Assembly (NCBI GenBank): GCA_016209865.1
Contig: JACQVL010000166.1
Location: 1 to 8,978, forward strand
From: Candidatus Latescibacterota bacterium
Lineage (GTDB): Bacteria > JAAXHH01 > JACQVL01
DNA: 8,978 nt
Reading direction: 5' to 3'
Positions 2 to 8,978 of the stretch are shown here, one piece after another. The translations under genes and the position numbers were made by a program. Position 1 is the first letter of the stretch, and each line of letters opens with the position of its first letter. The notes beneath the pieces are model-generated. The model ran no database searches. It saw only the letters and a program-made list of their open reading frames with translations, and was not told the DNA's origin.

Positions 2-157
2 CCGTATCCCTCGTTGAACGACAAATATACGATCTTCGGCCAGGTGACCGAGGGGCAGGAGGTCGTGAACAAGATCGGGGGCGTCCAGCGCGGCCCGGGT
101 GACAAGCCGACGACCCCGGTCGTGCTCACGAAGGTCACGATCGAGCGGGTGAAGTAG
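2..157 (+). CDS. Cyclophilin-type peptidyl-prolyl cis-trans isomerase, C-terminal fragment
   Basis: The window opens in frame inside this gene, and only its last 51 codons and TAG stop (155-157) are present. The visible protein reads PYPSLNDKYTIFGQVTEGQ and ends TKVTIERVK. The stretch LNDKYTIFGQVTEGQEVV corresponds to the late beta-strand region of cyclophilins, where 'L(D/N)-x-(K/x)-(Y/H)-T-(I/V)-FG-(Q/R)-V' is strongly conserved. The closing 'P-x-x-x-V-x-(I/L)-x-x-V-x-I' strand is also typical of bacterial PpiA/PpiB-like enzymes. Members of the family catalyse proline cis-trans isomerisation during protein folding. The catalytic Arg/Phe region lies upstream of the window, so activity and any signal peptide cannot be judged. 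The stop is followed immediately by the inverted heptamer repeat that begins at 158. No functional link to the glycan genes is evident. Confidence 0.85.
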   Translation, partial: PYPSLNDKYTIFGQVTEGQEVVNKIGGVQRGPGDKPTTPVVLTKVTIERVK

Positions 158-263
158 AGCAAGGACGAAACGGAATAAGGACGAAGGACGAAACGGCGAA
201 CCGGTCATGCCCGCGCACGCGAAAATCCTTTTCGTCCTTCATACTTCGTCCTTTGTCCTTGCT
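158..263. repeat. Inverted heptamer repeat element (GGACGAA / TTCGTCC)
   Basis: This element fills most of the gap between the cyclophilin and permease genes. The left arm has GGACGAA at 163-169, 179-185 and 186-192. The right arm has its complement in phased heptamers: TTCGTCC 231-237, TTCATAC 238-244, TTCGTCC 245-251 and TTTGTCC 252-258. The outer ends AGCAAGGAC (158-166) and GTCCTTGCT (255-263) are perfect complements, and AAGGACGAAA (184-193) pairs perfectly with TTTCGTCCTT (230-239). AAGGACG (177-183) can pair with CGTCCTT (247-253), leaving a bulge of exactly seven bases (240-246), which is one unit. It may act as an RNA hairpin after the cyclophilin stop, but it has no classical terminator T-run. 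No convincing -35/-10 promoter was seen in it. Confidence 0.8.
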
Positions 264-267
264 TTCC

Positions 268-273
268 AGGAGG
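268..273 (+). promoter_or_regulatory. Strong Shine-Dalgarno site for the permease
   Basis: AGGAGG lies seven bases before ATG 281. It is the best ribosome-binding site in the window and fixes the permease start. It sits just outside the right arm of the inverted heptamer element. Confidence 0.85.
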
Positions 274-280
274 CCTGGCC

Positions 281-1693
281 ATGGCTGAGCCTGCCGTCCG
301 CGTTGGCACGACCGACGAGGGGACGGACGCTGATCGGGCGCTCGTCCGGGGGTTGGGGCTGGTCGAGGCGACGACGATCGTCATGGGTGGCATCATCGGG
401 TCGGGGATCTTCCGCGCGCCGAGCTTCGTCGCCCAGGCGGTGGGGTCGCCCGGCATGAGCATCATGGTCTGGCTCGTCTGCGGACTGATCGCCTTGTTCG
501 GCGCGCTGTGCTACGCCGAGCTGACGTCCGCCCTGCCGCACACGGGCGGGACGTACGTCTACCTCCGAGAAGCCTATGACGCCCCGATCATCACGTTCCT
601 GTACGGCTGGGTGTACTTCCTCGTCATCCAGGCGGCCGGGATCGCGGCGGTCGCCACCGTGTTCGCCACGTACGTGGCGAGCATCATCAATACCGTGGAA
701 GGCGCAACGCTGGGCGTCTGGACGCAGCGGGGGATTGCGCTCGGCTGCATCTGGCTGCTGACGGTCATCAACTGTATCGGCGTCCGGGTCGGCGGCCAGG
801 TCTCCAACCTGTTCACGTTCCTGAAAACAAGCGCGATCGTCGTGCTGATCGCCCTGGGTTTCATCTTTGCCGAGAAAGGGAGCATCGCTCATTTCACCCC
901 GTTCTGGGGGGCGAGCACGGACGGCGGGTTCAACCCCGGCGTGTTCGGCGCGGCGATGATCACCGCCCTGTTCGCGTACGAAGGGTGGACGTTCTCCAGT
1001 TACGTCGGGGGCGAAGTCCGCAACCCGAGGCGCAACCTGCCGCTGTCGATCCTCATCGGGATCAGCGCGGTGATGGTCATCTACCTGCTCGTCAATTTCG
1101 TCTATCTGTACATCCTGCCGTTCGAGCAGCTCCAGCAATCCGAATGGGTAGCGGCGGACACGATGCGGGTCCTCGTCGGCCCGGCCGGCGCGCTCCTGAT
1201 CTCGATCGCGGTGATGTGTTCGACGTTCGGGACGGTTAACATCATGCTCCTGACGTCGCCGCGCATCTACTACGCGATGGCGCGGGACGGGATGCTCTTC
1301 CAGGGGCTGACGCGCGTCCATCCGACGTACCGGACTCCCGCCAACGCCATCCTCGTCCAGGGATTGCTCGCCTCCGCCTTCGCGGTGGCGGGCGGGTACG
1401 ACGAGATCATCACCTACACCAGCTTCCCCACCTACTTTCTTCTCCTCCTCGTCGCCGTCGGGGTGATGCTCCTCCGCAAGAAGCGGCCCGACCTCCCGCG
1501 TCCGTACAAAGTCTGGGGCTACCCGGTCACGCCCCTCATCTTCATCCTCGTCCTCACTGGATACCTCTACACCCTCGTCTCGCAGTGGAAGACCCTCCAG
1601 GAGACACTCATCGGGTTTGCCATCACCGCGACCGGGCTTCCGTTCTATTATCACTGGCGGAAGAAAGCAACAGCCGTGACGAGGGACACGTGA
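281..1693 (+). CDS. APC-superfamily amino acid permease (LAT-like)
   Basis: This is a 470-residue polytopic inner-membrane transporter of the amino acid-polyamine-organocation superfamily (AA_permease_2 type), of the usual length and with about 12 hydrophobic segments. After a hydrophilic N-terminus of about 25 residues comes GLVEATTIVMGGIIGSGIF. The GSGIF at 40-44 is the unwound substrate-binding part of TM1. CYAELTSALPHTGGTYVYL follows TM2 as in LAT/SteT-type exchangers, and FAYEGWTFSSYVGGEVRNP (231-249) is the TM6 and following loop signature. Substrate is probably neutral or cationic amino acids, by uniport or exchange; sequence alone does not decide. ATG 281 is chosen for its AGGAGG site. 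The protein ends VTRDT, and this tail and the TGA stop lie in the GTGACGA repeat at 1676-1703. The next gene begins 34 bp downstream, so co-transcription with galE is possible, but a functional link is not obvious. Confidence 0.93.
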   Translation: MAEPAVRVGTTDEGTDADRALVRGLGLVEATTIVMGGIIGSGIFRAPSFVAQAVGSPGMSIMVWLVCGLIALFGALCYAELTSALPHTGGTYVYLREAYDAPIITFLYGWVYFLVIQAAGIAAVATVFATYVASIINTVEGATLGVWTQRGIALGCIWLLTVINCIGVRVGGQVSNLFTFLKTSAIVVLIALGFIFAEKGSIAHFTPFWGASTDGGFNPGVFGAAMITALFAYEGWTFSSYVGGEVRNPRRNLPLSILIGISAVMVIYLLVNFVYLYILPFEQLQQSEWVAADTMRVLVGPAGALLISIAVMCSTFGTVNIMLLTSPRIYYAMARDGMLFQGLTRVHPTYRTPANAILVQGLLASAFAVAGGYDEIITYTSFPTYFLLLLVAVGVMLLRKKRPDLPRPYKVWGYPVTPLIFILVLTGYLYTLVSQWKTLQETLIGFAITATGLPFYYHWRKKATAVTRDT

Positions 1694-1703
1694 CGAGGAA
1701 AGG
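1676..1703. repeat. Short period-7 repeat covering the permease stop
   Basis: GTGACGA occurs at 1676-1682 and 1690-1696, exactly two heptamers apart, with GGGACAC between (1683-1689) and GGAAAGG after (1697-1703). The permease TGA (1691-1693) lies in the second GTGACGA. With only two good copies it could be chance, but its 7-base phase matches the clearer elements at 158-263 and 5348-5382. Confidence 0.45.
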
Positions 1704-1727
1704 TCCGGCACCATCACGAGGTCTCCG

Positions 1728-2693
1728 ATGAACTGTCTGATCACCGGCGGCGCCGGGTACATCGGGTCGGTGTGCGCCGACCTCCTCCTCCACGCCGGAC
1801 ATACCGTCTCCGTCATCGACGACCTCCGCCAGGGGAACGCGGACGCCGTCCCAGACGGGGCGGTGTTCTACCACGCCCAGTACGGCGAGAAGGCGGTCTT
1901 GCACGAGGTCTTCGACCGTCACATCGACGTCGTGTTCCACTTAGCCGCCGAGGCGAGCGTCCCGCGGTCGATGCACAACCCCGGCCTGTTCTATGAGGTG
2001 AACGTCTGCCAGGGTCTCAGCCTCCTGGAGACGATGCGTCACCACGGCTGTCGCATCCTGATCTTTTCGTCGACCGCCGCCGTGTTCGGCGAGCCGATCA
2101 CCGTCCCGATCGATGAGCACCACCCGAAGAATCCCTGCAACCCGTACGGGGATTCAAAGCTCGCGTTCGAGCGTTTGCTGCGGTGGTATCACGAGTGCTA
2201 CGGCTTCCGGGCGCACATCTTCCGGTATTTCAACGCGGCGGGAGCGACTGAGCGGCATGGTGAATCCCGTCCGGTCGAAGAGCATCTCATCCCCCGCGCG
2301 TTCGAAGCCCTGACCGGGAAACGTAATCAACTCACGGTGTTCGGCAACGATTATCCGACGCGCGACGGGACGTGCGTCCGGGATTACCTGCACGTGCGCG
2401 ATGTCGCCCAGGCGCACCTCGTCTCTGCGGAGTATCTGTTGCAGCACGACGAGTGTGACGATTTTAACTTAGGCAGCGGGACGGGCACGACCGTGCTCGA
2501 ACTCTTAGACGCCATCCAACGGGTAACGGGACGCCCTGTGCCCTACACCATCGGCGGCCGGCGAGCGGGCGACCCGGCCGTGCTCGTCGCCTCGTCCGAC
2601 AAAGCGCGACAGAAACTCGGCCTGACGTTCGAGCATTCGACGGTCGACCAGATCGTGTCGAGCGCGTGGCGGTGGGTTCGGAAGGCAGGGTAA
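1728..2693 (+). CDS. galE: UDP-glucose 4-epimerase (GalE-type extended SDR)
   Basis: This 321-residue soluble NAD-dependent epimerase interconverts UDP-glucose and UDP-galactose (possibly the N-acetyl forms) and so supplies a sugar donor to the glycosyltransferases downstream. The N-terminal Rossmann motif GGAGYIG is at residues 7-13. SSTAAVFGEP carries the catalytic Ser/Thr region at about 114-116. The YxxxK catalytic pair is Y140 and K144 in NPYGDSK. FRYFNAAGA (165-173) and the later VRDYLHVRDVAQAHL are specific GalE signatures, distinguishing it from dTDP-glucose dehydratases and GDP-mannose dehydratases. The length fits bacterial GalE (about 320-340). ATG 1728 is preceded by GAGG (1718-1721) at six bases. 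An 82-bp gap holding a strong inverted octamer repeat separates it from the first glycosyltransferase. It contains three TTA leucine codons, unusual for this base composition. Substrate preference (UDP-Glc or UDP-GlcNAc) cannot be told from these motifs. Confidence 0.93.
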   Translation: MNCLITGGAGYIGSVCADLLLHAGHTVSVIDDLRQGNADAVPDGAVFYHAQYGEKAVLHEVFDRHIDVVFHLAAEASVPRSMHNPGLFYEVNVCQGLSLLETMRHHGCRILIFSSTAAVFGEPITVPIDEHHPKNPCNPYGDSKLAFERLLRWYHECYGFRAHIFRYFNAAGATERHGESRPVEEHLIPRAFEALTGKRNQLTVFGNDYPTRDGTCVRDYLHVRDVAQAHLVSAEYLLQHDECDDFNLGSGTGTTVLELLDAIQRVTGRPVPYTIGGRRAGDPAVLVASSDKARQKLGLTFEHSTVDQIVSSAWRWVRKAG

Positions 2694-2703
2694 AGGGCTG
2701 TTG

Positions 2704-2776
2704 CCCCCCTGCCCCTCTGCTCCCCTGCCCCCCTGCGGGGGGCGCAGAGGGGCGGAGGGGCAGAGGAGAGGTGGGG
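2704..2776. repeat. Inverted octamer repeat, long GC-rich hairpin
   Basis: The left arm has four phased octamers: CCCCCCTG 2704-2711, CCCCTCTG 2712-2719, CTCCCCTG 2720-2727 and CCCCCCTG 2728-2735. The right arm has four complementary-type octamers: CAGAGGGG 2745-2752, CGGAGGGG 2753-2760, CAGAGGAG 2761-2768 and AGGTGGGG 2769-2776. The apex is a perfect stem, GCCCCCC (2727-2733) with GGGGGGC (2737-2743) around a three-base loop TGC. Pairing continues with few mismatches out to about 2706/2766. There is no downstream T-run, so a simple intrinsic terminator is unlikely. The right arm holds the ribosome-binding site of the next gene, and its last base is the first base of that gene's GTG start. 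Confidence 0.85.
2762..2771 (+). promoter_or_regulatory. Shine-Dalgarno site inside the octamer repeat, sets the GTG start
   Basis: AGAGGAGAGG includes GAGGAG (2763-2768), seven bases before GTG 2776. It is the reason to start the glycosyltransferase at 2776 and not at the upstream in-frame TTG 2701, which would translate the repeat. In the folded hairpin part of this site is paired with the left arm near 2706-2710. Confidence 0.7.
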
Positions 2777-3924
2777 TGCGGCTCTGCGCCTTCGGCACGT
2801 ACGAACGCGACTTCGTCAGGAATCGGACGATCCGAAACGGCCTCCGGGCGTGCGGATGGGAGGTCGAGGAATGCCACGCGCCCGTTTGGGAACGGCAGCG
2901 CAATAAGACCGGCCGGTACCTCGGCGTCCTGTCGTTGTGCCGGGTTAGCGGACGATTGATCGTGTCGTACGTGCGGCTGTTGCTGCGGTATACCTTCACC
3001 GTCCGCCGGTACGACATCATGCTCGTCGGCTACATCGGCCATCTCGACCTGCTGTTCGCCGGCCTGCTGACCCGCATCCCGCGCCGACGGCCGCTCGTCT
3101 TCGACCCGCTCATCTCACTCTACGACACGCTCGTCGCCGACCGGGCCGCCTTCCCGTCGGACTCGCTCATCGGCCGGCTGCTCTGGCAGCTCGACCGTTC
3201 AACCTGCCGGATGGCCGACCTCGTCTTGCTCGATACGAACGCCCACATCGAGTATTTCGTCACGACGTTCCACCTGCCACGCGAGAAGTTCGTCCGGGTG
3301 TTCGTCGGGGCGGAGAGCGACCTGTTCGCGCCGAGGACACAGGCCGGACGGACTGATGAATTCCGCGTGCTGTTCGTCGGCAAGTTCACCCCGCTCCACG
3401 GCCTGCTGACGATCATCCAGGCCGCGAAGCTGCTAGAGACGGACCCGCAGATCATGTTCGACATCATCGGGTCGGGACAACTGTCCGACGAGGTGCATCA
3501 GCTTGCGGTGCAACTCGACGTACGGGCCGTCCAGTTTACTGATTGGGTGGAGTACGAAAACCTGCCGGAGCGGATGGCGGCGGCGGATGTCTGTCTGGGC
3601 ATCTTCGGGACGACCGACAAGGCGGACCGGGTCATCCCCGCCAAAGTGTTCACCGCGCTCGCCATGCGGAAGCCGTTGATCACGGGGGATTCGACCGCCA
3701 TCCGGGAGCTGCTGATCGACGGGGAGAGCGCGGTGCTGTGCCGGCGGGGCGACCCGGAGGCGCTCAGCCAGGCGATCCGTCGTCTGAAGTCGGACGCCGC
3801 ATTCCGGGAACGTCTCGCCGACGCCGGACACCAGGTGTACTGCGAACAGGCGTCAGAAGCCCGGATCGGACGGGCGGTGACGGCGGCTCTCACCCGGCTC
3901 GTCCCGGATGAGTCGCCACGATGA
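2776..3924 (+). CDS. Glycosyltransferase family 4 (GT-B fold), first of two
   Basis: With the GTG start this is a 382-residue retaining GT-B glycosyltransferase, probably peripheral on the cytoplasmic membrane face, adding a sugar from a nucleotide donor to a lipid-linked glycan. The N-terminus MRLCAFGTYERDFVRNRTI is the typical opening of the acceptor-side Rossmann domain, which supports this start. LLDTNAHIEYF, then VFVGAESDLFAPR, lead to the linker. The donor domain begins near FVGKFTPLHGLLTIIQAAK (from residue 200). CLGIFGTTDKADRVIPAKVF (the VIPAKV at 286-291) and KPLITGDSTAIRELLIDGE form the nucleotide-sugar site. The common E-x7-E motif is absent in its standard form; the 'RVIP-x-KV' version is typical of one GT4 subgroup. 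A longer start at TTG 2701 would add 25 Pro/Gly/Arg-rich residues encoded by the repeat and is less likely. The stop overlaps the flippase start as ATGA (3921-3924), implying translational coupling. The sugar specificity is unknown. Confidence 0.9.
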   Translation: MRLCAFGTYERDFVRNRTIRNGLRACGWEVEECHAPVWERQRNKTGRYLGVLSLCRVSGRLIVSYVRLLLRYTFTVRRYDIMLVGYIGHLDLLFAGLLTRIPRRRPLVFDPLISLYDTLVADRAAFPSDSLIGRLLWQLDRSTCRMADLVLLDTNAHIEYFVTTFHLPREKFVRVFVGAESDLFAPRTQAGRTDEFRVLFVGKFTPLHGLLTIIQAAKLLETDPQIMFDIIGSGQLSDEVHQLAVQLDVRAVQFTDWVEYENLPERMAAADVCLGIFGTTDKADRVIPAKVFTALAMRKPLITGDSTAIRELLIDGESAVLCRRGDPEALSQAIRRLKSDAAFRERLADAGHQVYCEQASEARIGRAVTAALTRLVPDESPR

Positions 3925-5381
3925 ACCGATTCGCCCGCGTGACGCGGAACCTCGCCATCCTGTTCACCGGCAACCTCGTCAACAAGGCGGCGGGCGCGGT
4001 GTTGTTCATCGTCCTCGCCAGGCACGTCGGCGCATCGGGACTCGGCAAGTACGCGTTCGCCGTCGCCTTTACCGCACTGTTTGCCGCCCTCCCCGACCTG
4101 GGCCTCAACACGATGCTCGTCCGGGCGGTGGCCCGTGACCGCTCCTCCGCCAGCAAATACTTGGGCAACGTCGCCGCCTTGCGGGCACTGCTCGCCGTCC
4201 TGGCGTTCTGCCTGACCGGGATCGGCCTCTCCGTCGGCGTGTGGACCGGTCGGATTAAACCGGACACCGCCCCGATCGTCTGGCTCGTTGCCGGGGCTGC
4301 CTTCTTCGCCTCCGTCGGCAATGGGGTCCGGTGGTCGTTCCAGGCGTTCGAGCGGCTCCAGTACGAAGCCGTCCTGGCCGGCGGAGAGAGTCTGTTGATG
4401 CTGGCCGGCGGGGTGCTGGTGCTCGTCTCAGGGTTCGGGCTCATCGAGCTGACCGCCGTGCAGCTCGGCCTGTCCGTCCTGGCCTGCGCCGCTGGTCTGC
4501 TGCTGACGACGACCCGCATCGCCCGGCCGGCGTTCGAGCTCGACCGGGCGTTCTGCAAACAGTTGATCATCGGGGCTGTCCCATTTATCTTGATGTTCGT
4601 CCTCACCCGGGTGTATTTCAATTTCGATACGGTGCTGCTCTCGTTCCTGAGAGGGGATGCGGAGACTGGCCGGTACACCGCCGCCTACAGGTTCATCACG
4701 ATGTTCCAGATGATCCCGATGCTCTGCAATTTCGCCGTCTTCCCGGTGATGGTCGAGGCGGCGGCCGGTCCGAAAGAGGAGTTCAGCCGGGTGGTCGAAC
4801 GGTCGTTCCGGTACATGATCATCCTCGGCCTGGGGATCGGAGTGACCACGACCGTCTTCGCCGCGCCCATCATCCAGTTGCTCTATGGGATGAAGTTCGT
4901 CGAGACGGCCCCCGTCCTCCGTCTGTTGATCTGGATGAGTTGCTGCTACTTCGTGACGAACGTGAGCTACTGTGCCGTGATCGCATGTCACCGGGAACGG
5001 GCAGTCGTCACGATCGGCGGAATCGTGCTGGGGACGAACGTCGTCTGCAACCTGTTCCTCATCCCCCGGTGGGGGGCGACCGGCGCGGCCTGCGCCATCC
5101 TCGTCTCGGAAAGCCTGTCGTGCGGCCTGTTCCTCCGCCAGGTCGCCCGGAGCGTCGAGGCCATCCGCTGGGGCCGGCTGTTCCTCCGGCCAGTCTGCGC
5201 GGCGGCGGTGACCGCCATCCCGGCGTGGCTGCTCCTGGAGACTCATCTGGTCGTCGGACTCGGCGGTGTCGCGGTCGTGTACCTCGTCCTGCTCCTGCTC
5301 GTCGGCGCGATCCCGGCGGGCGACCTGCGGCTCGCCCGGGCGTTCATGAGTGAAAAGGTAAGAGTGCAGAGTGAAGAGTGA
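3921..5381 (+). CDS. Wzx-like polysaccharide flippase (MOP superfamily)
   Basis: This is a 486-residue integral membrane protein with about 12-14 hydrophobic segments, the expected size for the polysaccharide-specific transporter branch of the MOP/MATE-like exporters. Members move undecaprenyl-diphosphate-linked oligosaccharides from the cytoplasmic to the periplasmic face. The N-terminus LAILFTGNLVNKAAGAVLF, followed by LARHVGASGLGKYAFAVAF and DLGLNTMLVRAVARD, is characteristic of Polysacc_synt proteins. A mid-protein FNFDTVLLSFLRGDAETGRY loop (around residue 234) matches the second-half repeat start of the fold. ATG 3921 overlaps the upstream stop by four bases and lacks a strong ribosome-binding site of its own. 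The last residues, MSEKVRVQSEE, are encoded by the GAGTGAA heptamer repeat at 5348-5382, so the C-terminal tail is repeat-derived. The TGA stop lies inside the last unit. The exact substrate and Wzx/Wzy dependence cannot be told from the sequence. Confidence 0.91.
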   Translation: MNRFARVTRNLAILFTGNLVNKAAGAVLFIVLARHVGASGLGKYAFAVAFTALFAALPDLGLNTMLVRAVARDRSSASKYLGNVAALRALLAVLAFCLTGIGLSVGVWTGRIKPDTAPIVWLVAGAAFFASVGNGVRWSFQAFERLQYEAVLAGGESLLMLAGGVLVLVSGFGLIELTAVQLGLSVLACAAGLLLTTTRIARPAFELDRAFCKQLIIGAVPFILMFVLTRVYFNFDTVLLSFLRGDAETGRYTAAYRFITMFQMIPMLCNFAVFPVMVEAAAGPKEEFSRVVERSFRYMIILGLGIGVTTTVFAAPIIQLLYGMKFVETAPVLRLLIWMSCCYFVTNVSYCAVIACHRERAVVTIGGIVLGTNVVCNLFLIPRWGATGAACAILVSESLSCGLFLRQVARSVEAIRWGRLFLRPVCAAAVTAIPAWLLLETHLVVGLGGVAVVYLVLLLLVGAIPAGDLRLARAFMSEKVRVQSEE

Positions 5382-5382
5382 A
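5348..5382. repeat. Tandem heptamer repeat (GAGTGAA) bridging two genes
   Basis: There are five phased heptamers: GAGTGAA 5348-5354, AAGGTAA 5355-5361, GAGTGCA 5362-5368, GAGTGAA 5369-5375 and GAGTGAA 5376-5382. The fourth unit provides the putative GTG start of the methyltransferase (5371-5373), and the fifth provides the flippase TGA stop (5379-5381). On the complement strand the unit is TTCACTC, which resembles the TTCGTCC unit of the element at 158-263 at five of seven positions. Confidence 0.8.
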
Positions 5383-6111
5383 ACAGAAAACAGTCTGGTG
5401 ATGCCCGTGCCCGACTCGAACATCGAGGGGATCAAGGAACGGACCGACCCCCGGCTCGAACCGGCGGTGATGAGCCGGGTCGAGCACCTGTTCCGGTACC
5501 GGTACGCCAGCCGGCGGTGCGGGCAGACTGTCTTAGACGTGGGCTGCGGGGTCGGCTACGGCAGCCGGATGGTGTTCGAGACGGGACGGCGGGTGGTTGG
5601 TGTCGATGTGTCGATGGATGCGTTGCGATACGCGACGGTCCGGTACCCGGGGCCGGGGTACGTCCGGGCGTCGGGCGAGTGTCTGCCGTTCCCCGCCCGG
5701 TCGTTCGACTCCGTCATCGCGTTCGAGGTGATCGAACATCTCGACCGACACGAGGGACTGCTCGACGAACTCGACCGGGTGCTCAAGCCCGGCGGCGATC
5801 TGTTCATCTCGACTCCCAACCCACGGCATCTCTGGAATGCCCTCCGGCACTGGCTTCGCGGCGCGCCGTACCCGGAGAAACTGACGTCGGAGAACATCTA
5901 CCACCGGAGAGAATACCACTACGAGGAATTCATCCAGATCCTGAAGGACCGGGAGTTTTCCATCCGGTCGACGTTCGGCCAGACGATCCTGCTGCGCCCG
6001 CTCAACCCGGTGTTCGCACGGCTGAGGCTCTTCAAGTTCCAGGTGTACTCAGGTTATTTCATCCCGAAGTACGCGGTGACGGTCGTCGTCCACGCCGCCA
6101 AATCATCGTAG
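5371..6111 (+). CDS. Class I SAM-dependent methyltransferase (Methyltransf_11 type)
   Basis: This is a 246-residue soluble Rossmann-fold enzyme. SAM-binding motif I is VLDVGCGVGYG (residues 54-64), the acidic residue after strand 2 is D79 in VVGVDVS, and ASGECLPFPARSFDSVIAFE with the following VIEHL covers motifs II-III. LDRVLKPGGDLFISTPNPRH (STPNP at 150-154) is the usual beta5 region of Methyltransf_11 proteins. Lying between a flippase and glycosyltransferases, it probably methylates a sugar hydroxyl or a chain terminus, though the acceptor is not shown by sequence. GTG 5371 overlaps the flippase by 11 bp and lies in the heptamer repeat; ATG 5401, ten codons later, is a plausible alternative, and neither has a strong ribosome-binding site. 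It carries no kinase domain of the WbdD type. The TAG stop is built into the AGGAG ribosome-binding site of the next gene. Confidence 0.9.
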   Translation: MKSETENSLVMPVPDSNIEGIKERTDPRLEPAVMSRVEHLFRYRYASRRCGQTVLDVGCGVGYGSRMVFETGRRVVGVDVSMDALRYATVRYPGPGYVRASGECLPFPARSFDSVIAFEVIEHLDRHEGLLDELDRVLKPGGDLFISTPNPRHLWNALRHWLRGAPYPEKLTSENIYHRREYHYEEFIQILKDREFSIRSTFGQTILLRPLNPVFARLRLFKFQVYSGYFIPKYAVTVVVHAAKSS

Positions 6112-6114
6112 GAG
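6110..6114 (+). promoter_or_regulatory. Shine-Dalgarno overlapping the upstream stop codon
   Basis: AGGAG begins within the TAG stop (6109-6111) of the first methyltransferase and lies six bases before ATG 6121. This fixes the start of the second methyltransferase and suggests coupled translation. Confidence 0.75.
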
Positions 6115-6120
6115 TCCGCG

Positions 6121-6972
6121 ATGCTCACCGAAGCCCGGATCAAACGATTCATCCCGAAGCCGCTCCATCCCGCGACGAAGGTGCTGGCCGGGACGGTGAA
6201 GCGCCGGTACGCGAAACTCCGCGACTGGATCAGCCGGCCGAACCTTTACCGCCTGAGCACGCCCGAGCGGGTCGGCGTGATCTACGGCAACCCGACCGAG
6301 ATGAGCCTCGACGAACGGCTGCTGCTGTTCGCCCTCATCCGAGGACACCGGCCGGAACGCGCCCTGGAAATCGGCACCCGGCAGGGCGGGTCGGCGGCCA
6401 TCATCACGTGCGCGATGGAGGATAACGGCGCCGGCCGGTTGATCGGCGTCGATCCGAACCCGGACATCACCGTCAACCCCCGCGTGTTCCATGGACGGTT
6501 CCATCTGATCGCCCGACCCTCCCCCGAAGCCGTGGCCGAGGCGCGAGAGGCGGCGGGCGGGCCGTTCGATTTCGTCCTGATCGACGGGGTTCATGTGTAC
6601 GACCAGGTCACGAAAGACATCGAGGGGTGCCTACCCCACCTGACCGATGGGGCATATCTGCTGTTGCACGACGCGTTCAATTACGGGGTGCGCGAGGCCA
6701 TCCGTGCGGCGATCCAGGCTCACTCCAGCCTGCATGACTGCGGGTACGTCGGGACGACCGTGTACACGTCAGAGCCATTGCTCACGTACCGAGGCCTGCG
6801 GCTGCTGCGGTTCGACCCGTCCCCGATCGCCGACCCGCAGCCCCTCGTCGAGGCGGCTTACCGGGTGGCGGGCAAGCCGGTCCCGCCGGCCGACCCCGAC
6901 CTCCTCAACCACGACGAATGGTACTGCCGGACCGTCCAGCCCTGTCCCTATTGCCAGAAGATACGGGTCTGA
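6121..6972 (+). CDS. Class I SAM-dependent methyltransferase (Methyltransf_24-like)
   Basis: This 283-residue protein is not similar to its methyltransferase neighbour beyond the fold. A basic N-terminal region of about 75 residues precedes the Rossmann core: ALEIGTRQGGSAAII (LEIG at 82-85) binds SAM, and the acidic residue D111 follows in GVDPNPD. FDFVLIDGVHVYDQVTKDIE has the D155-G-x-H158-x-Y motif of the Methyltransf_24 group, where these residues often contribute to a metal or acceptor site, and LLLHDAFNYGVREAI (H183-D184) follows. Such proteins are common in glycan clusters as putative sugar O-methyltransferases. After the core, the tail has a cysteine trio (C269, C275, C278) in CRTVQPCPYCQ. 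ATG 6121 is supported by AGGAG overlapping the previous stop. The next gene follows within six bases. Sugar methylation is inferred from context; a role as a distant hydroxylase-like relative is the main alternative. Confidence 0.87.
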   Translation: MLTEARIKRFIPKPLHPATKVLAGTVKRRYAKLRDWISRPNLYRLSTPERVGVIYGNPTEMSLDERLLLFALIRGHRPERALEIGTRQGGSAAIITCAMEDNGAGRLIGVDPNPDITVNPRVFHGRFHLIARPSPEAVAEAREAAGGPFDFVLIDGVHVYDQVTKDIEGCLPHLTDGAYLLLHDAFNYGVREAIRAAIQAHSSLHDCGYVGTTVYTSEPLLTYRGLRLLRFDPSPIADPQPLVEAAYRVAGKPVPPADPDLLNHDEWYCRTVQPCPYCQKIRV

Positions 6973-6978
6973 GTGCTT

Positions 6979-8049
6979 ATGCGCATTACCTTCATCCTGC
7001 CGTTCATCAACATGACCGGGGGTAACAAGGTCATCCTGCAGTACGCGAACTGCCTGACCACACGAGGGCATCAGGTCACCGTCGCCTATCCGATCATCCC
7101 GCTGCGCTTCGGCGCGCCGTGGTCCGACCTCCACACCCTGTACGTCCAGGTGATGCAGGGGTTGGGCAACCTGCGGAAAGGGGTTCGCGTCCGGTGGTTC
7201 GACCTGCACGCCCGCCTCATCCGGCCGATGACGCTCTCCGCCCGGTCGATCCCGGACGCGGACGCCGTCGTCGCCACCGCCTGGCCGACCGCGTACTACG
7301 TCCACCGGTACCCGCCGTCGAAGGGGGAGAAGTTCTACATCATCCAGCACTACGAGGTCTGGAGCGGCCCGAAGGGACTCGTCGACGGCACGTGGACGCT
7401 CCCTCTCAAGAAGATCGTCATCGCGTCATGGTTACAAGAGCTCGCCGAACACCAGTTCGGTCAGCGCGTAGAACGGGTGATCACGAACGGGATCAACCTG
7501 GACGATTTCTACGGCCAGCCGCGCGCCGCGTCCGGCCCGAAGCGGGTCGGCATGCTCTGGCATTATCTCGAATGGAAAGGGTTGCAGGACGGCCTGACTG
7601 CGTTCGAGCGGGCGCGGGAGCGGTTCCCCGGCCTGACGCTCGTCCTGTTCGCCACCCACCGGTTCCCCGGCATCCCGGAGGACGCCGAGTTTCATCTCAA
7701 CCCGCCGATCTCGACGATTCGGGAGATTTACACGTCCTGCGACGTGTTCCTCTCGCCGAGCTGGTCGGAGGGCTGCCAGGCCCCCCCGATGGAGGCGATG
7801 GCGTGCGGGTGCGCGGTCGTGGCGACGAACGTCGGCGGGATTCCGGATTACGCGATCGCGGGAGAAACGGCGCTCGTCGTCCCGCCGAAGCGGCCCGACC
7901 TGCTGGCCGAGGCGCTCATCGAGCTGCTCGCCGATGACGACAACCGCCAGCGCATCGCCTTAGCCGGACAGCGCCACATCCAGCAGTTCACCTGGGACCG
8001 TGCGACGGATCAATTAGAGGGGGTGTTTAGAACCCCGTGCCATCTGTGA
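6979..8049 (+). CDS. Glycosyltransferase family 4 (GT-B fold), second
   Basis: This 356-residue GT-B enzyme transfers a sugar from a nucleotide donor to the growing glycan. MRITFILPFINMTGGNKVIL is a textbook GT4 opening with the glycine-rich acceptor loop. The middle holds FYIIQHYEVWSGPKG and VITNGINLDDFYG, and the donor domain starts near WHYLEWKGLQDGL (W194 onward). SPSWSEGCQAPPMEAMACG carries the E-x7-E motif (E264 and E272), and VVATNVGGIPDYAIAGETAL completes the nucleotide-sugar pocket. The 'IQHYE' type N-terminal domain is found in rhamnosyl- and other deoxyhexosyl-transferases, but donor specificity is not proven. ATG 6979 is preferred to GTG 6973 because the protein then begins MRITF, like its relatives; neither has a good ribosome-binding site. 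The stop at 8047-8049 overlaps the next gene, which is consistent with one transcription unit. Confidence 0.91.
   Translation: MRITFILPFINMTGGNKVILQYANCLTTRGHQVTVAYPIIPLRFGAPWSDLHTLYVQVMQGLGNLRKGVRVRWFDLHARLIRPMTLSARSIPDADAVVATAWPTAYYVHRYPPSKGEKFYIIQHYEVWSGPKGLVDGTWTLPLKKIVIASWLQELAEHQFGQRVERVITNGINLDDFYGQPRAASGPKRVGMLWHYLEWKGLQDGLTAFERARERFPGLTLVLFATHRFPGIPEDAEFHLNPPISTIREIYTSCDVFLSPSWSEGCQAPPMEAMACGCAVVATNVGGIPDYAIAGETALVVPPKRPDLLAEALIELLADDDNRQRIALAGQRHIQQFTWDRATDQLEGVFRTPCHL
8016..8036 (+). promoter_or_regulatory. Ribosome-binding site in a small hairpin before the GT2 start
   Basis: AGAGGGGGT (8016-8024) is the only purine-rich site near GTG 8037, about 12 bases before it. GGGGT (8020-8024) is complementary to ACCCC (8032-8036) with a seven-base loop, so the site can be hidden in a stem until a ribosome translating the end of the upstream gene opens it. 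The elements are visible; the regulatory role is inferred. Confidence 0.4.
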
Positions 8050-8939
8050 TCGCAGTCGTCGTCAATTATAACCGGCGGGACGACACCCTCGAATGTCTGG
8101 ACTCCCTCCAGCGTGTGCCGTCCCCCGCCCTCGACGTGCTCGTCGTCGATAACGGGTCGTCGGACGGGTCGGTCGAGGCGATCCGGGCCCGGTTTCCCGG
8201 CGTGACGGTGATCGAGGCCGGGACGAACCTCGGCTATCCGGGCGGGAACAATTTGGGCATCGAGCGGGCACTGGAACGGGGCGCGGAGTACCTTTTTATC
8301 TTGAATAATGATATCGTCGTCGATCCGGACATCGTGCAGGCGCTCGTCGATGTGGCCGAACACGACATGGCTGTCGGGATGGTCTGTCCGAAGGTCTACT
8401 ACTACGACCGCCGGGACGTCATCTGGTCGGCCGGGTCGCGCATCGACATGCGAACCGGCACTCCCCTTCTGAGAGGGTGCGGGGAGGTGGATCGCGGCCA
8501 GTACGACGCCGAATGTCCGGTCGAGGTGATCGACGGCTGCGCCATCCTCGTTACCCGGCGGCTGTGCGAGCAGGTTGGGCTGATCGACCCGACGTATTTT
8601 GCGTACTACGAAGACACCGACTGGGCCATCCGGGCGACCCGCGCCGGGTTCAGGATCATCTACACCCCGCGCGCCCGCGCCTGGCACAAGGTGTCCGCCA
8701 CCAACCGGAGCGGGACGGCCCGCTCCCCGTTCCAGGTGTACTACCACATCCGCAACCACCTGCTGTTCCTCTCCCGGTACAGCCGGATCACGACGGGCAA
8801 GCACGTCGAGATGTGGGGGACGGTCGCGTTCAACGTTCTCAAGGTGCTGGTCGGGTACGACCGCGAGCGGAGTCTGGCGCGGCTGCGCGGTATCACCGAC
8901 TACTACCGTGGCCGCTTTGGCCATCGGGTGTCCCTGTAA
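8037..8939 (+). CDS. Glycosyltransferase family 2 (GT-A fold), rhamnosyltransferase-like
   Basis: This is a 300-residue inverting GT-A transferase of the usual length for the rhamnosyltransferase-like GT2 group. MPSVIAVVVNYNRRDDTLEC is the nucleotide-binding start, followed by VLVVDNGSSDGSVEAIRARF. EAGTNLGYPGGNNLGIERAL leads to the metal-binding ILNNDIVVDPD (N90-N91-D92, in place of DXD). YFAYYEDTDWAIRATRAGF holds the catalytic-base region E192-D193-T194-D195, and AWHKVS follows as in the family. No transmembrane anchor is evident, so it probably acts at the cytoplasmic membrane surface. GTG 8037 overlaps the previous gene by 13 bp; GTG 8046 would give a four-base GTGA overlap but lies farther from the purine-rich site. 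A GC-rich palindrome-like stretch at 8461-8486 is read through in frame as PLLRGCGE. The TAA stop is followed directly by a hairpin. Confidence 0.93.
   Translation: MPSVIAVVVNYNRRDDTLECLDSLQRVPSPALDVLVVDNGSSDGSVEAIRARFPGVTVIEAGTNLGYPGGNNLGIERALERGAEYLFILNNDIVVDPDIVQALVDVAEHDMAVGMVCPKVYYYDRRDVIWSAGSRIDMRTGTPLLRGCGEVDRGQYDAECPVEVIDGCAILVTRRLCEQVGLIDPTYFAYYEDTDWAIRATRAGFRIIYTPRARAWHKVSATNRSGTARSPFQVYYHIRNHLLFLSRYSRITTGKHVEMWGTVAFNVLKVLVGYDRERSLARLRGITDYYRGRFGHRVSL
8461..8486. repeat. GC-rich palindromic repeat embedded in the GT2 coding sequence
   Basis: CTCCCC (8461-8466) is complementary to GGGGAG (8481-8486), and CCCT (8464-8467) to AGGG (8474-8477). The spacing and the TTCTGAGAGGG core resemble widespread interspersed bacterial palindromes of the CTCCC...GAGAGGG...GGGGAGG kind. 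The reading frame is kept open. The resemblance is from memory and is not proof of a mobile repeat. Confidence 0.35.
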
Positions 8940-8941
8940 AT

Positions 8942-8962
8942 CCGGGGTTCGGATAACCCCGG
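8942..8962 (+). terminator. Perfect 8-bp hairpin after the last gene
   Basis: CCGGGGTT (8942-8949) and AACCCCGG (8955-8962) are perfect complements around the five-base loop CGGAT, beginning two bases after the TAA stop of the GT2 gene. Such a hairpin could stop transcription or protect the 3' end of the operon mRNA. It is followed by GGTACGGGATTC, not a T-run, so it is not a standard intrinsic terminator. Confidence 0.4.
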
Positions 8963-8978
8963 GGTACGGGATTCGGGA
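8962..8978. repeat. Possible start of another heptamer array, cut by the window edge
   Basis: GGGTACG (8962-8968), GGATTCG (8969-8975) and GGA (8976-8978) are in 7-base phase and share GG-x-T-x-CG. Only two units and a fragment are present, so this is a suggestion based on the clearer elements elsewhere in the window. Confidence 0.3.

Follow-up and report, generated by a model that had tools for sequence, protein, structure and literature searches.

Heptameric repeats and the present locus

Heptameric tandem repeats have so far been reported piecemeal, in single taxa and under separate explanations that include the G-quadruplex (G4), the regulator site, slippage, and the intron stem. The window analyzed here is the whole 8,978-base contig JACQVL010000166.1 of Candidatus Latescibacterota bacterium (assembly GCA_016209865.1), which belongs to a 3.75 Mb draft genome of 356 contigs. 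A sequence-only reading of this window had described tandem repeats of unrelated sequence but similar 7/8-base architecture at its gene junctions, and each of the named sites was found to hold a repeat, including the two weak candidates at 1676-1703 and 8962-8978 (Table 1). Such junction repeats, whose arrays are referred to as arms below, are real, genome-wide in the host, and widely distributed.

Rehm et al. (2015; PMC4692102) described GGGNATC heptamers in Xanthomonas and Nostoc and proposed a G4 structure for them. Like the present arms, these repeats are intergenic, favor arrays of four 7-nt units, and occur on the sense strand close to stops and on the antisense strand close to starts. 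They form convergent inverted pairs in Xanthomonas and are under-represented between divergent genes, as is likewise the case here. In contrast, they consist of a single G-rich unit type per genome, while the host genome contains ten families that are mostly incapable of forming a G4. The host arms agreed with the GGGNATC description in position, strand, and unit number, but not in G-runs of at least three with the capacity for a G4. The present analysis also differs in that same-family pairing within gaps was quantified, words were common across phyla, and units were swapped at orthologous gaps.

MacGregor (2015; PMC4679880) described direct TAACTGA repeats in Beggiatoaceae, Cyanobacteria, and Bacteroidetes. 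These are also intergenic 7-nt units, present in two to six copies in distant phyla and suspected of horizontal spread. However, they comprise a single unit and lie mostly upstream of starts, and in the genome chiefly studied essentially none are paired in inverted orientation. The P6b stem of the Nostoc trnL intron is composed of inverted arrays of heptads, where Class I (TDNGATT) and Class II (NNTGAGT) repeatedly replaced each other while the structure was kept (PMC4476775, PMC3488679). The GGATTTT family of the host matches Class I (TTGGATT, TTAGATT), but P6b is one intron site, whereas the heptad arms occur at gene edges genome-wide. Multicopy elements of Geobacter metallireducens include three to five tandem 7/8-mers, often as opposite-strand pairs at variable distance, and are read as sites for regulators; no rule on edges or polarity is given in the part of that report covered here (PMC2700814). 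The short tandemly repeated repetitive (STRR) families of heterocystous cyanobacteria are intergenic tandem heptanucleotides, as are the present arms, although the host is not demonstrably cyanobacterial. Inverted pairing within a family is not known to belong to the STRR definition.

No paper uniting heptad repeats into one format was found in the literature outside subscription access. While single-family cases (GGGNATC, TAACTGA, and trnL P6b) are known, the format shared by multiple families, its rules, and the swapping of units appear to be under-described. Because ten families share one geometry and are interchangeable at orthologous gaps, their common factor is the format. Why there are seven bases, why about four units, and why at gene ends can now be tested across families that are alike in layout only, and neither a regulator-site nor a G4 function should be inferred from any single unit sequence.

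Genome-wide excess of period-seven arrays

The host sample comprised 639 kb of the genome, including 40 contigs taken blind and 20 picked for the GGACGAA motif. Arrays were called at a lag autocorrelation score of at least 13, with a first-order Markov shuffle as the control. At lag 7, 189 arrays were identified versus one in the shuffle, which provided the period-7 excess on which the sequence-only reading had staked its proposal. Only 14 arrays were found at lag 8 and 11 at lag 9 (none in the shuffle for either), and none above chance at lags 5 and 10. The underlying rule is thus a period of 7, and the 7/8-base architecture proposed earlier was too broad in its second part: octamers are few, and the octamer array of the window is atypical. 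Octamers of the AACGTTYG/AACGTGYC type near gene ends (L032:3458-3487 and L053:52-135) represented a different kind of array.

Family profiles identified 272 arms in ten families, named by the G-rich strand: AGTGACG/A (AGTGACR), GGATTTT, GGACGAA, GGTCGGT, GGGTTCG, GGGGTCA, GGGCAGT, GAGTGAA, GATTGCG, and GAAATGG. At the same threshold, no arms were found in a shuffled subset of 25 sequences that contained 64 in its real form. The blind contigs (C1-C40) contained 112 arms in 297 kb, which corresponds to about 1,400 arms per genome. Hence, unrelated unit sequences of one design, often as inverted arms, are not peculiar to the window but extend over the genome. The sequence TTCGTCCTTCGTCC occurred in 91 genome copies versus none for its reversed control, with adjacent copies ordered '-' then '+'. 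Contig ends were not enriched in arms (4 of 100 ends versus 39 of 1,000 random windows).

Arm anatomy, position, and polarity

The arms were mostly 24 or about 31 nt in length (24-33 nt), composed of three or four units plus a part unit, and had A-rich flanks (AAAAGC outside and AAAA inside). At stop edges, the arm started a median of 2 nt past the stop codon or overlapped it. At start edges, it ended a median of 16 nt before the start codon, directly 5' of the Shine-Dalgarno sequence (SD). The G-rich strand ran away from the gene, with 116 arms in and 16 out at stops and 64 in and 15 out at starts. The same polarity was observed in the blind-chosen contigs alone (50 in and 6 out at stops, 23 in and 3 out at starts) and in cyanobacterial loci (73 in and 13 out), and both the polarity and the edge rule were also obeyed between divergent genes. 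The earlier description, a mostly pyrimidine-rich strand whose units carry a T at a fixed phase, amounts more precisely to this rule of strand polarity.

The occurrence of arms varied among edges and gap types. Arms were carried by 116 of 278 stop edges versus 64 of 292 start edges. Among gaps of at least 60 nt, arms were present in 19 of 26 convergent, 92 of 193 co-oriented, and 15 of 35 divergent gaps, and full pairs in 9, 39, and 3 of these, respectively. As both occupancy and full pairs were highest in convergent gaps, the hairpins favor 3' ends. In gaps of at least 200 nt, 44 of 65 arms were located within 45 nt of an edge, compared with 24 of 65 under random placement; none of the dRS3-like palindromes in those gaps was near an edge, although only seven were counted.

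Units that contain TGA overlapped the ends of open reading frames (ORFs) more often (15 of 39 for AGTGACR and four of six for GAGTGAA) than GGACGAA (2 of 20). A general function as backup stop codons in all frames was rejected, since families without stops exist. A composite form was also observed, where a GGTCGGT arm is followed on the same strand, after 3-7 nt, by an AGTGACR arm (L047:6344-6411, L055:2145-2206, L058:8253-8300, and L076:2180-2234), with the nesting in mirror order on right arms. Additionally, a putative tRNA gene, recognized by eye (L087:12638-13018), was flanked by abutting heptad arms, and the edge rule may therefore not be limited to protein genes.

Pairing of arms and their loops

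Arms at both edges of one gap were inverted, and they belonged to the same family in 47 of 55 cases (14.5% expected by chance). In contrast, arms flanking a gene matched in three of 25 cases, which is the chance level (0.145). The unit therefore belongs to the gap, and the possibility that a gene forms a cassette bracketed by matching arms was rejected on this count. When the same-family pairs with a loop of at most 150 nt (n = 43) were folded, the shorter arm was base-paired to its partner over 60% or more of its length in 43 on the + strand and 42 on the - strand. The loops were mostly 10-150 nt in length, and the element ends consisted of heptad arrays of variable length. The likeness of the two arms within a pair did not exceed that of arms taken from separate pairs in the same family (permutation p = 0.72), so that neither recent copying from arm to arm nor compensatory change was supported; covariation and gene conversion between paired arms were rejected, as neither left a signal.

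Shared internal sequence, a feature of miniature inverted-repeat transposable elements (MITEs), was present in one Nostoc element, while the host loops were mostly unrelated. The one homologous pair consisted of two GGATTTT hairpins (L036:1735-1854 and L077:14296-14421), whose loops were 83% identical over 46 nt and provided the clearest sign of whole-element copying in the host genome. Many heptad loops (in L044, L055, L076, L078, L084, L086, and others) also contained, away from the gene edges, the palindrome TGTCATTCCCGCGAAAGCGGGAATCCA, which resembles the Neisseria dRS3 repeat. This palindrome had 32 copies in the 639 kb, of which 29 were intergenic.

Distribution across phyla

The exact 25-mer GATTTTGGATTTTAGATTTTGGATT was found in at least 95 stretches in 257 Gb, where about 0.0005 would be expected by chance (an estimate that assumes equal base frequencies). 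These included representatives of at least seven phyla, namely Cyanobacteria, Chloroflexi, Acidobacteria, Verrucomicrobia, Planctomycetes, Deltaproteobacteria, and Ignavibacteria. Of the sites inspected, most were flush with gene ends and had the same polarity, and several had an inverted partner. The distribution of heptad words is patchy: in a spread of 384 genomes, a degenerate form of GATTTTGGATTTTAGATTTTGGATT was found in 16 and the AGTGACR form in four, while within the order of the host only one genome, from the neighboring family, gave matches (13). Many of these matches were in metagenome-assembled genomes, where single cases may be due to contamination, but the pattern as a whole can hardly be, as it includes isolate genomes and flanks of high GC content. 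That the same words of 24-31 nt are repeated at scores of loci, and again in other phyla, speaks for dispersal.

Unit turnover at orthologous gaps in Nostoc

The comparison of orthologous gaps in Nostoc, where numbers are small and species pairs are not independent, revealed different units at the same position. For example, the gap past one conserved stop contained units of GGGGAGT, GGGAAAT/GGGTAAA, TAATTCG, or CAGAATT, depending on the species. In a convergent gap, five species had a stop-to-stop hairpin, each with its own units (GGATTTT, GGAGTTA, GGGGACT, GGGGAAT/GAGTGCT, or GGCAGGA). A third gap had GGATTTT arms at its left edge in eight of eight species, seven of which also had them at the right edge, and its loop was replaced. 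In the gap after ..gttaatctttga, the first unit was common and later units varied by species, and further junctions also had different units. Additionally, one hairpin was present in about a dozen copies with a common loop in a single genome, several of them flush with gene ends, and palindromic inserts were found inside arms. One junction (L129:5169-5412) also included two other repeats, about 97 and 150 bp in length, that are dispersed in dozens of copies in several Nostoc genomes.

These gaps indicate that units are exchanged, both by dispersal and by in-place turnover, under a lasting position and format, and what is conserved seems to be the format and not the sequence.

Origin and possible role of the arms

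The preferred explanation, which is given about an even chance of being correct, is that heptad arms are dispersed, have interchangeable families, and are retained as edge stems that are useful or harmless. In this view, the junction repeats belong to one genome-wide class of dispersed non-coding arms at gene edges, whose unit families, ten or more in number, can replace one another. The anatomy, position, polarity, and pairing of the arms, their recurrence across loci and phyla, and the different families at orthologous gaps were observed directly, while the manner of their spread and the reason for their retention are inferred. A candidate route of spread is the copying of entire arms or entire hairpins, probably accompanied by slippage in steps of seven bases. 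A stem at the edge of a transcript unit could be retained as useful or harmless regardless of its sequence, which would explain the swapping of unit families under a constant format. Its most likely role would be that of an intercistronic or 3'-end RNA stem, either bidirectional and terminator-like or involved in stabilization or processing.

Several observations weigh against this explanation, and the main difficulty for an RNA stem is posed by single arms and by start-edge arms in divergent gaps. Many arms are single, with no hairpin possible: 32 had less than 40 nt of gap remaining, and of the 56 with more, only nine held a short partner. The single arms nevertheless conform to the rule of edge and polarity. 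In divergent gaps, arms are also found directly 5' of starts, a place where no 3'-end stem would be expected, and their presence there weakens explanations that involve only mRNA and are tied to operons. Paired arms match no better than the family level and thus bear no mark of compensatory selection for the stem. Of the features of an intrinsic terminator, the 3'-end bias was observed but the small loop and direct T-run were not; with no strong T-run after the right arm and only a weak T excess outside it, a U-tract terminator is not convincing. Most host loops are unrelated, unlike those of a simple MITE. As for the means of copying, neither a Y1 transposase of the type associated with repetitive extragenic palindromes (RAYT, PF01797) nor a reverse transcriptase was found in the genome, which is 83% complete. 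Within that 83%, copying by either enzyme was rejected, and the genome had no encoded RAYT of the kind expected with repetitive extragenic palindromic (REP) sequences and bacterial interspersed mosaic elements (BIMEs).

The strongest competitor, considered unlikely but worth keeping in mind, regards the arms as purely selfish MITE- or REP-like palindromes, whose whole hairpins insert wherever they are tolerated, which in compact bacterial genomes is the space from a stop to the following SD, without a function for the host. The dispersed Nostoc copies with a common loop, the patchy presence of words shared across phyla (4 and 16 of 384 genomes), and the palindromic inserts that show such elements landing within arms are all in its favor. 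However, arms hug the edges in gaps of at least 200 nt, where tolerated space is ample, and in divergent gaps, while the few dRS3-like palindromes counted in the same gaps do not. The polarity kept by single arms, the mostly unrelated host loops, and a junction that is occupied in each of the five species with an intact gap, by differing families, also argue against it. A broader proposal, for which the probability is low, is that a sequence-independent process in multiple phyla writes or selects three to four heptads at gene edges, with fixed polarity and a matched family per gap. It would read the edges, or the format as such (a period of 7 nt, a length of about 31 nt, and an inverted pair), instead of the sequence, and it would correspond to no known transposition, slippage, or G4 system. 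Less probable again is local creation, where slippage produces 7-base arrays at the edges and template switching copies them from arm to arm, homogenizing the units. Families do differ between gaps and match within them, and the shared first unit in the gap after ..gttaatctttga is compatible with such growth. Against it are the lack of extra likeness within pairs, the same arm words at many loci and in other phyla, and the restriction of arms mostly to three or four units instead of an open-ended number. The general process envisaged by the sequence-only reading was thus right in its common format, and the in-place turnover in Nostoc leaves a weaker form of the idea standing, but it was mostly wrong on local homogenization, over which dispersal and in-place replacement are supported.

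Sequence-specific regulator sites, the role suggested for TAACTGA of Beggiatoaceae and for the Geobacter 7/8-mer pairs, are a very improbable explanation. The direct 7-bp spacing, three to five copies, and opposite-strand pairs would suit them (PMC4679880 and the covered part of PMC2700814), but ten unrelated units in one genome follow one positional rule and are interchangeable at orthologous gaps, and a single regulator would not read them all. G4 elements (Rehm et al., 2015), in which a requirement for four G-runs would account for the four units, have next to no chance as the general cause. The capable arms were largely those of GGGTTCG (25 of 33) and GGGGTCA (7 of 13), and a G4 may add to the function of such G-rich families. 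Overall, though, only 33 of 272 arms (12%) were capable. Seven of the ten families (GGACGAA, AGTGACR, GGATTTT, GGTCGGT, GAGTGAA, GATTGCG, and GGGCAGT) had no capable arm and an eighth had one in five, while the main non-G4 families have the same arm length, position, and polarity. A telomere-like healed break, with the same G-strand on both broken ends, was also considered; it fits the polarity and the matched families but not the long divergent gaps that keep their promoters, and it was rejected.

Features of the window

A Pfam search of the window identified a permease together with a cluster for surface polysaccharide (an epimerase, glycosyltransferases, a flippase, and methyltransferases), and an Rfam search returned no match at the gathering score. 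The coordinates of the junction repeats are listed in Table 1. The two GGACGAA arms are inverted and lie between the stop of the upstream ORF and the SD of the next; the predicted RNA fold of this pair has an energy of -45.8 kcal/mol (z -5.2).

Table 1. Junction repeats of the window and adjoining features.
Feature	Position	Strand	Remarks
TAG stop of upstream ORF entering the window	155-157	+	From sequence; ORF putatively cyclophilin-like by eye
Left GGACGAA heptad arm	161-192	+	G-rich strand sense; starts 3 nt past the TAG stop; flank AGC-[arm]-ACGG
Loop of GGACGAA pair	193-230		Unlike other loops in the genome
Right GGACGAA heptad arm	231-260	-	C-rich strand sense; finishes 20 nt 5' of ATG 281, immediately upstream of SD
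Degenerate AGTGACG-family arm	1676-1697	+	Overlaps permease ORF (281-1693) and provides its stop (1691-1693)
Octamer arm TGCCCCCC	2702-2736	-	C-rich strand first, an atypical polarity
Octamer arm GGGGCAGA/GGGGCGGA	2737-2776	+	Near-perfect hairpin with 2702-2736
GAGTGAA heptad arm	5348-5382	+	Provides stop (5379-5381) of flippase ORF (3921-5381); single, without inverted partner
GGGTTCG heptad arm	8960-8978	+	After the stop at 8937-8939; cut off by contig end

The octamer hairpin (TGCCCCCC / GGGGCAGA) has a predicted RNA fold of -65.1 kcal/mol (z -4.2). It leads with the C-rich arm, which is the reverse of nearly all heptad pairs, while other octamers of the GGGGCAGA type in the host genome (L056, L077, and L082) have the usual polarity.

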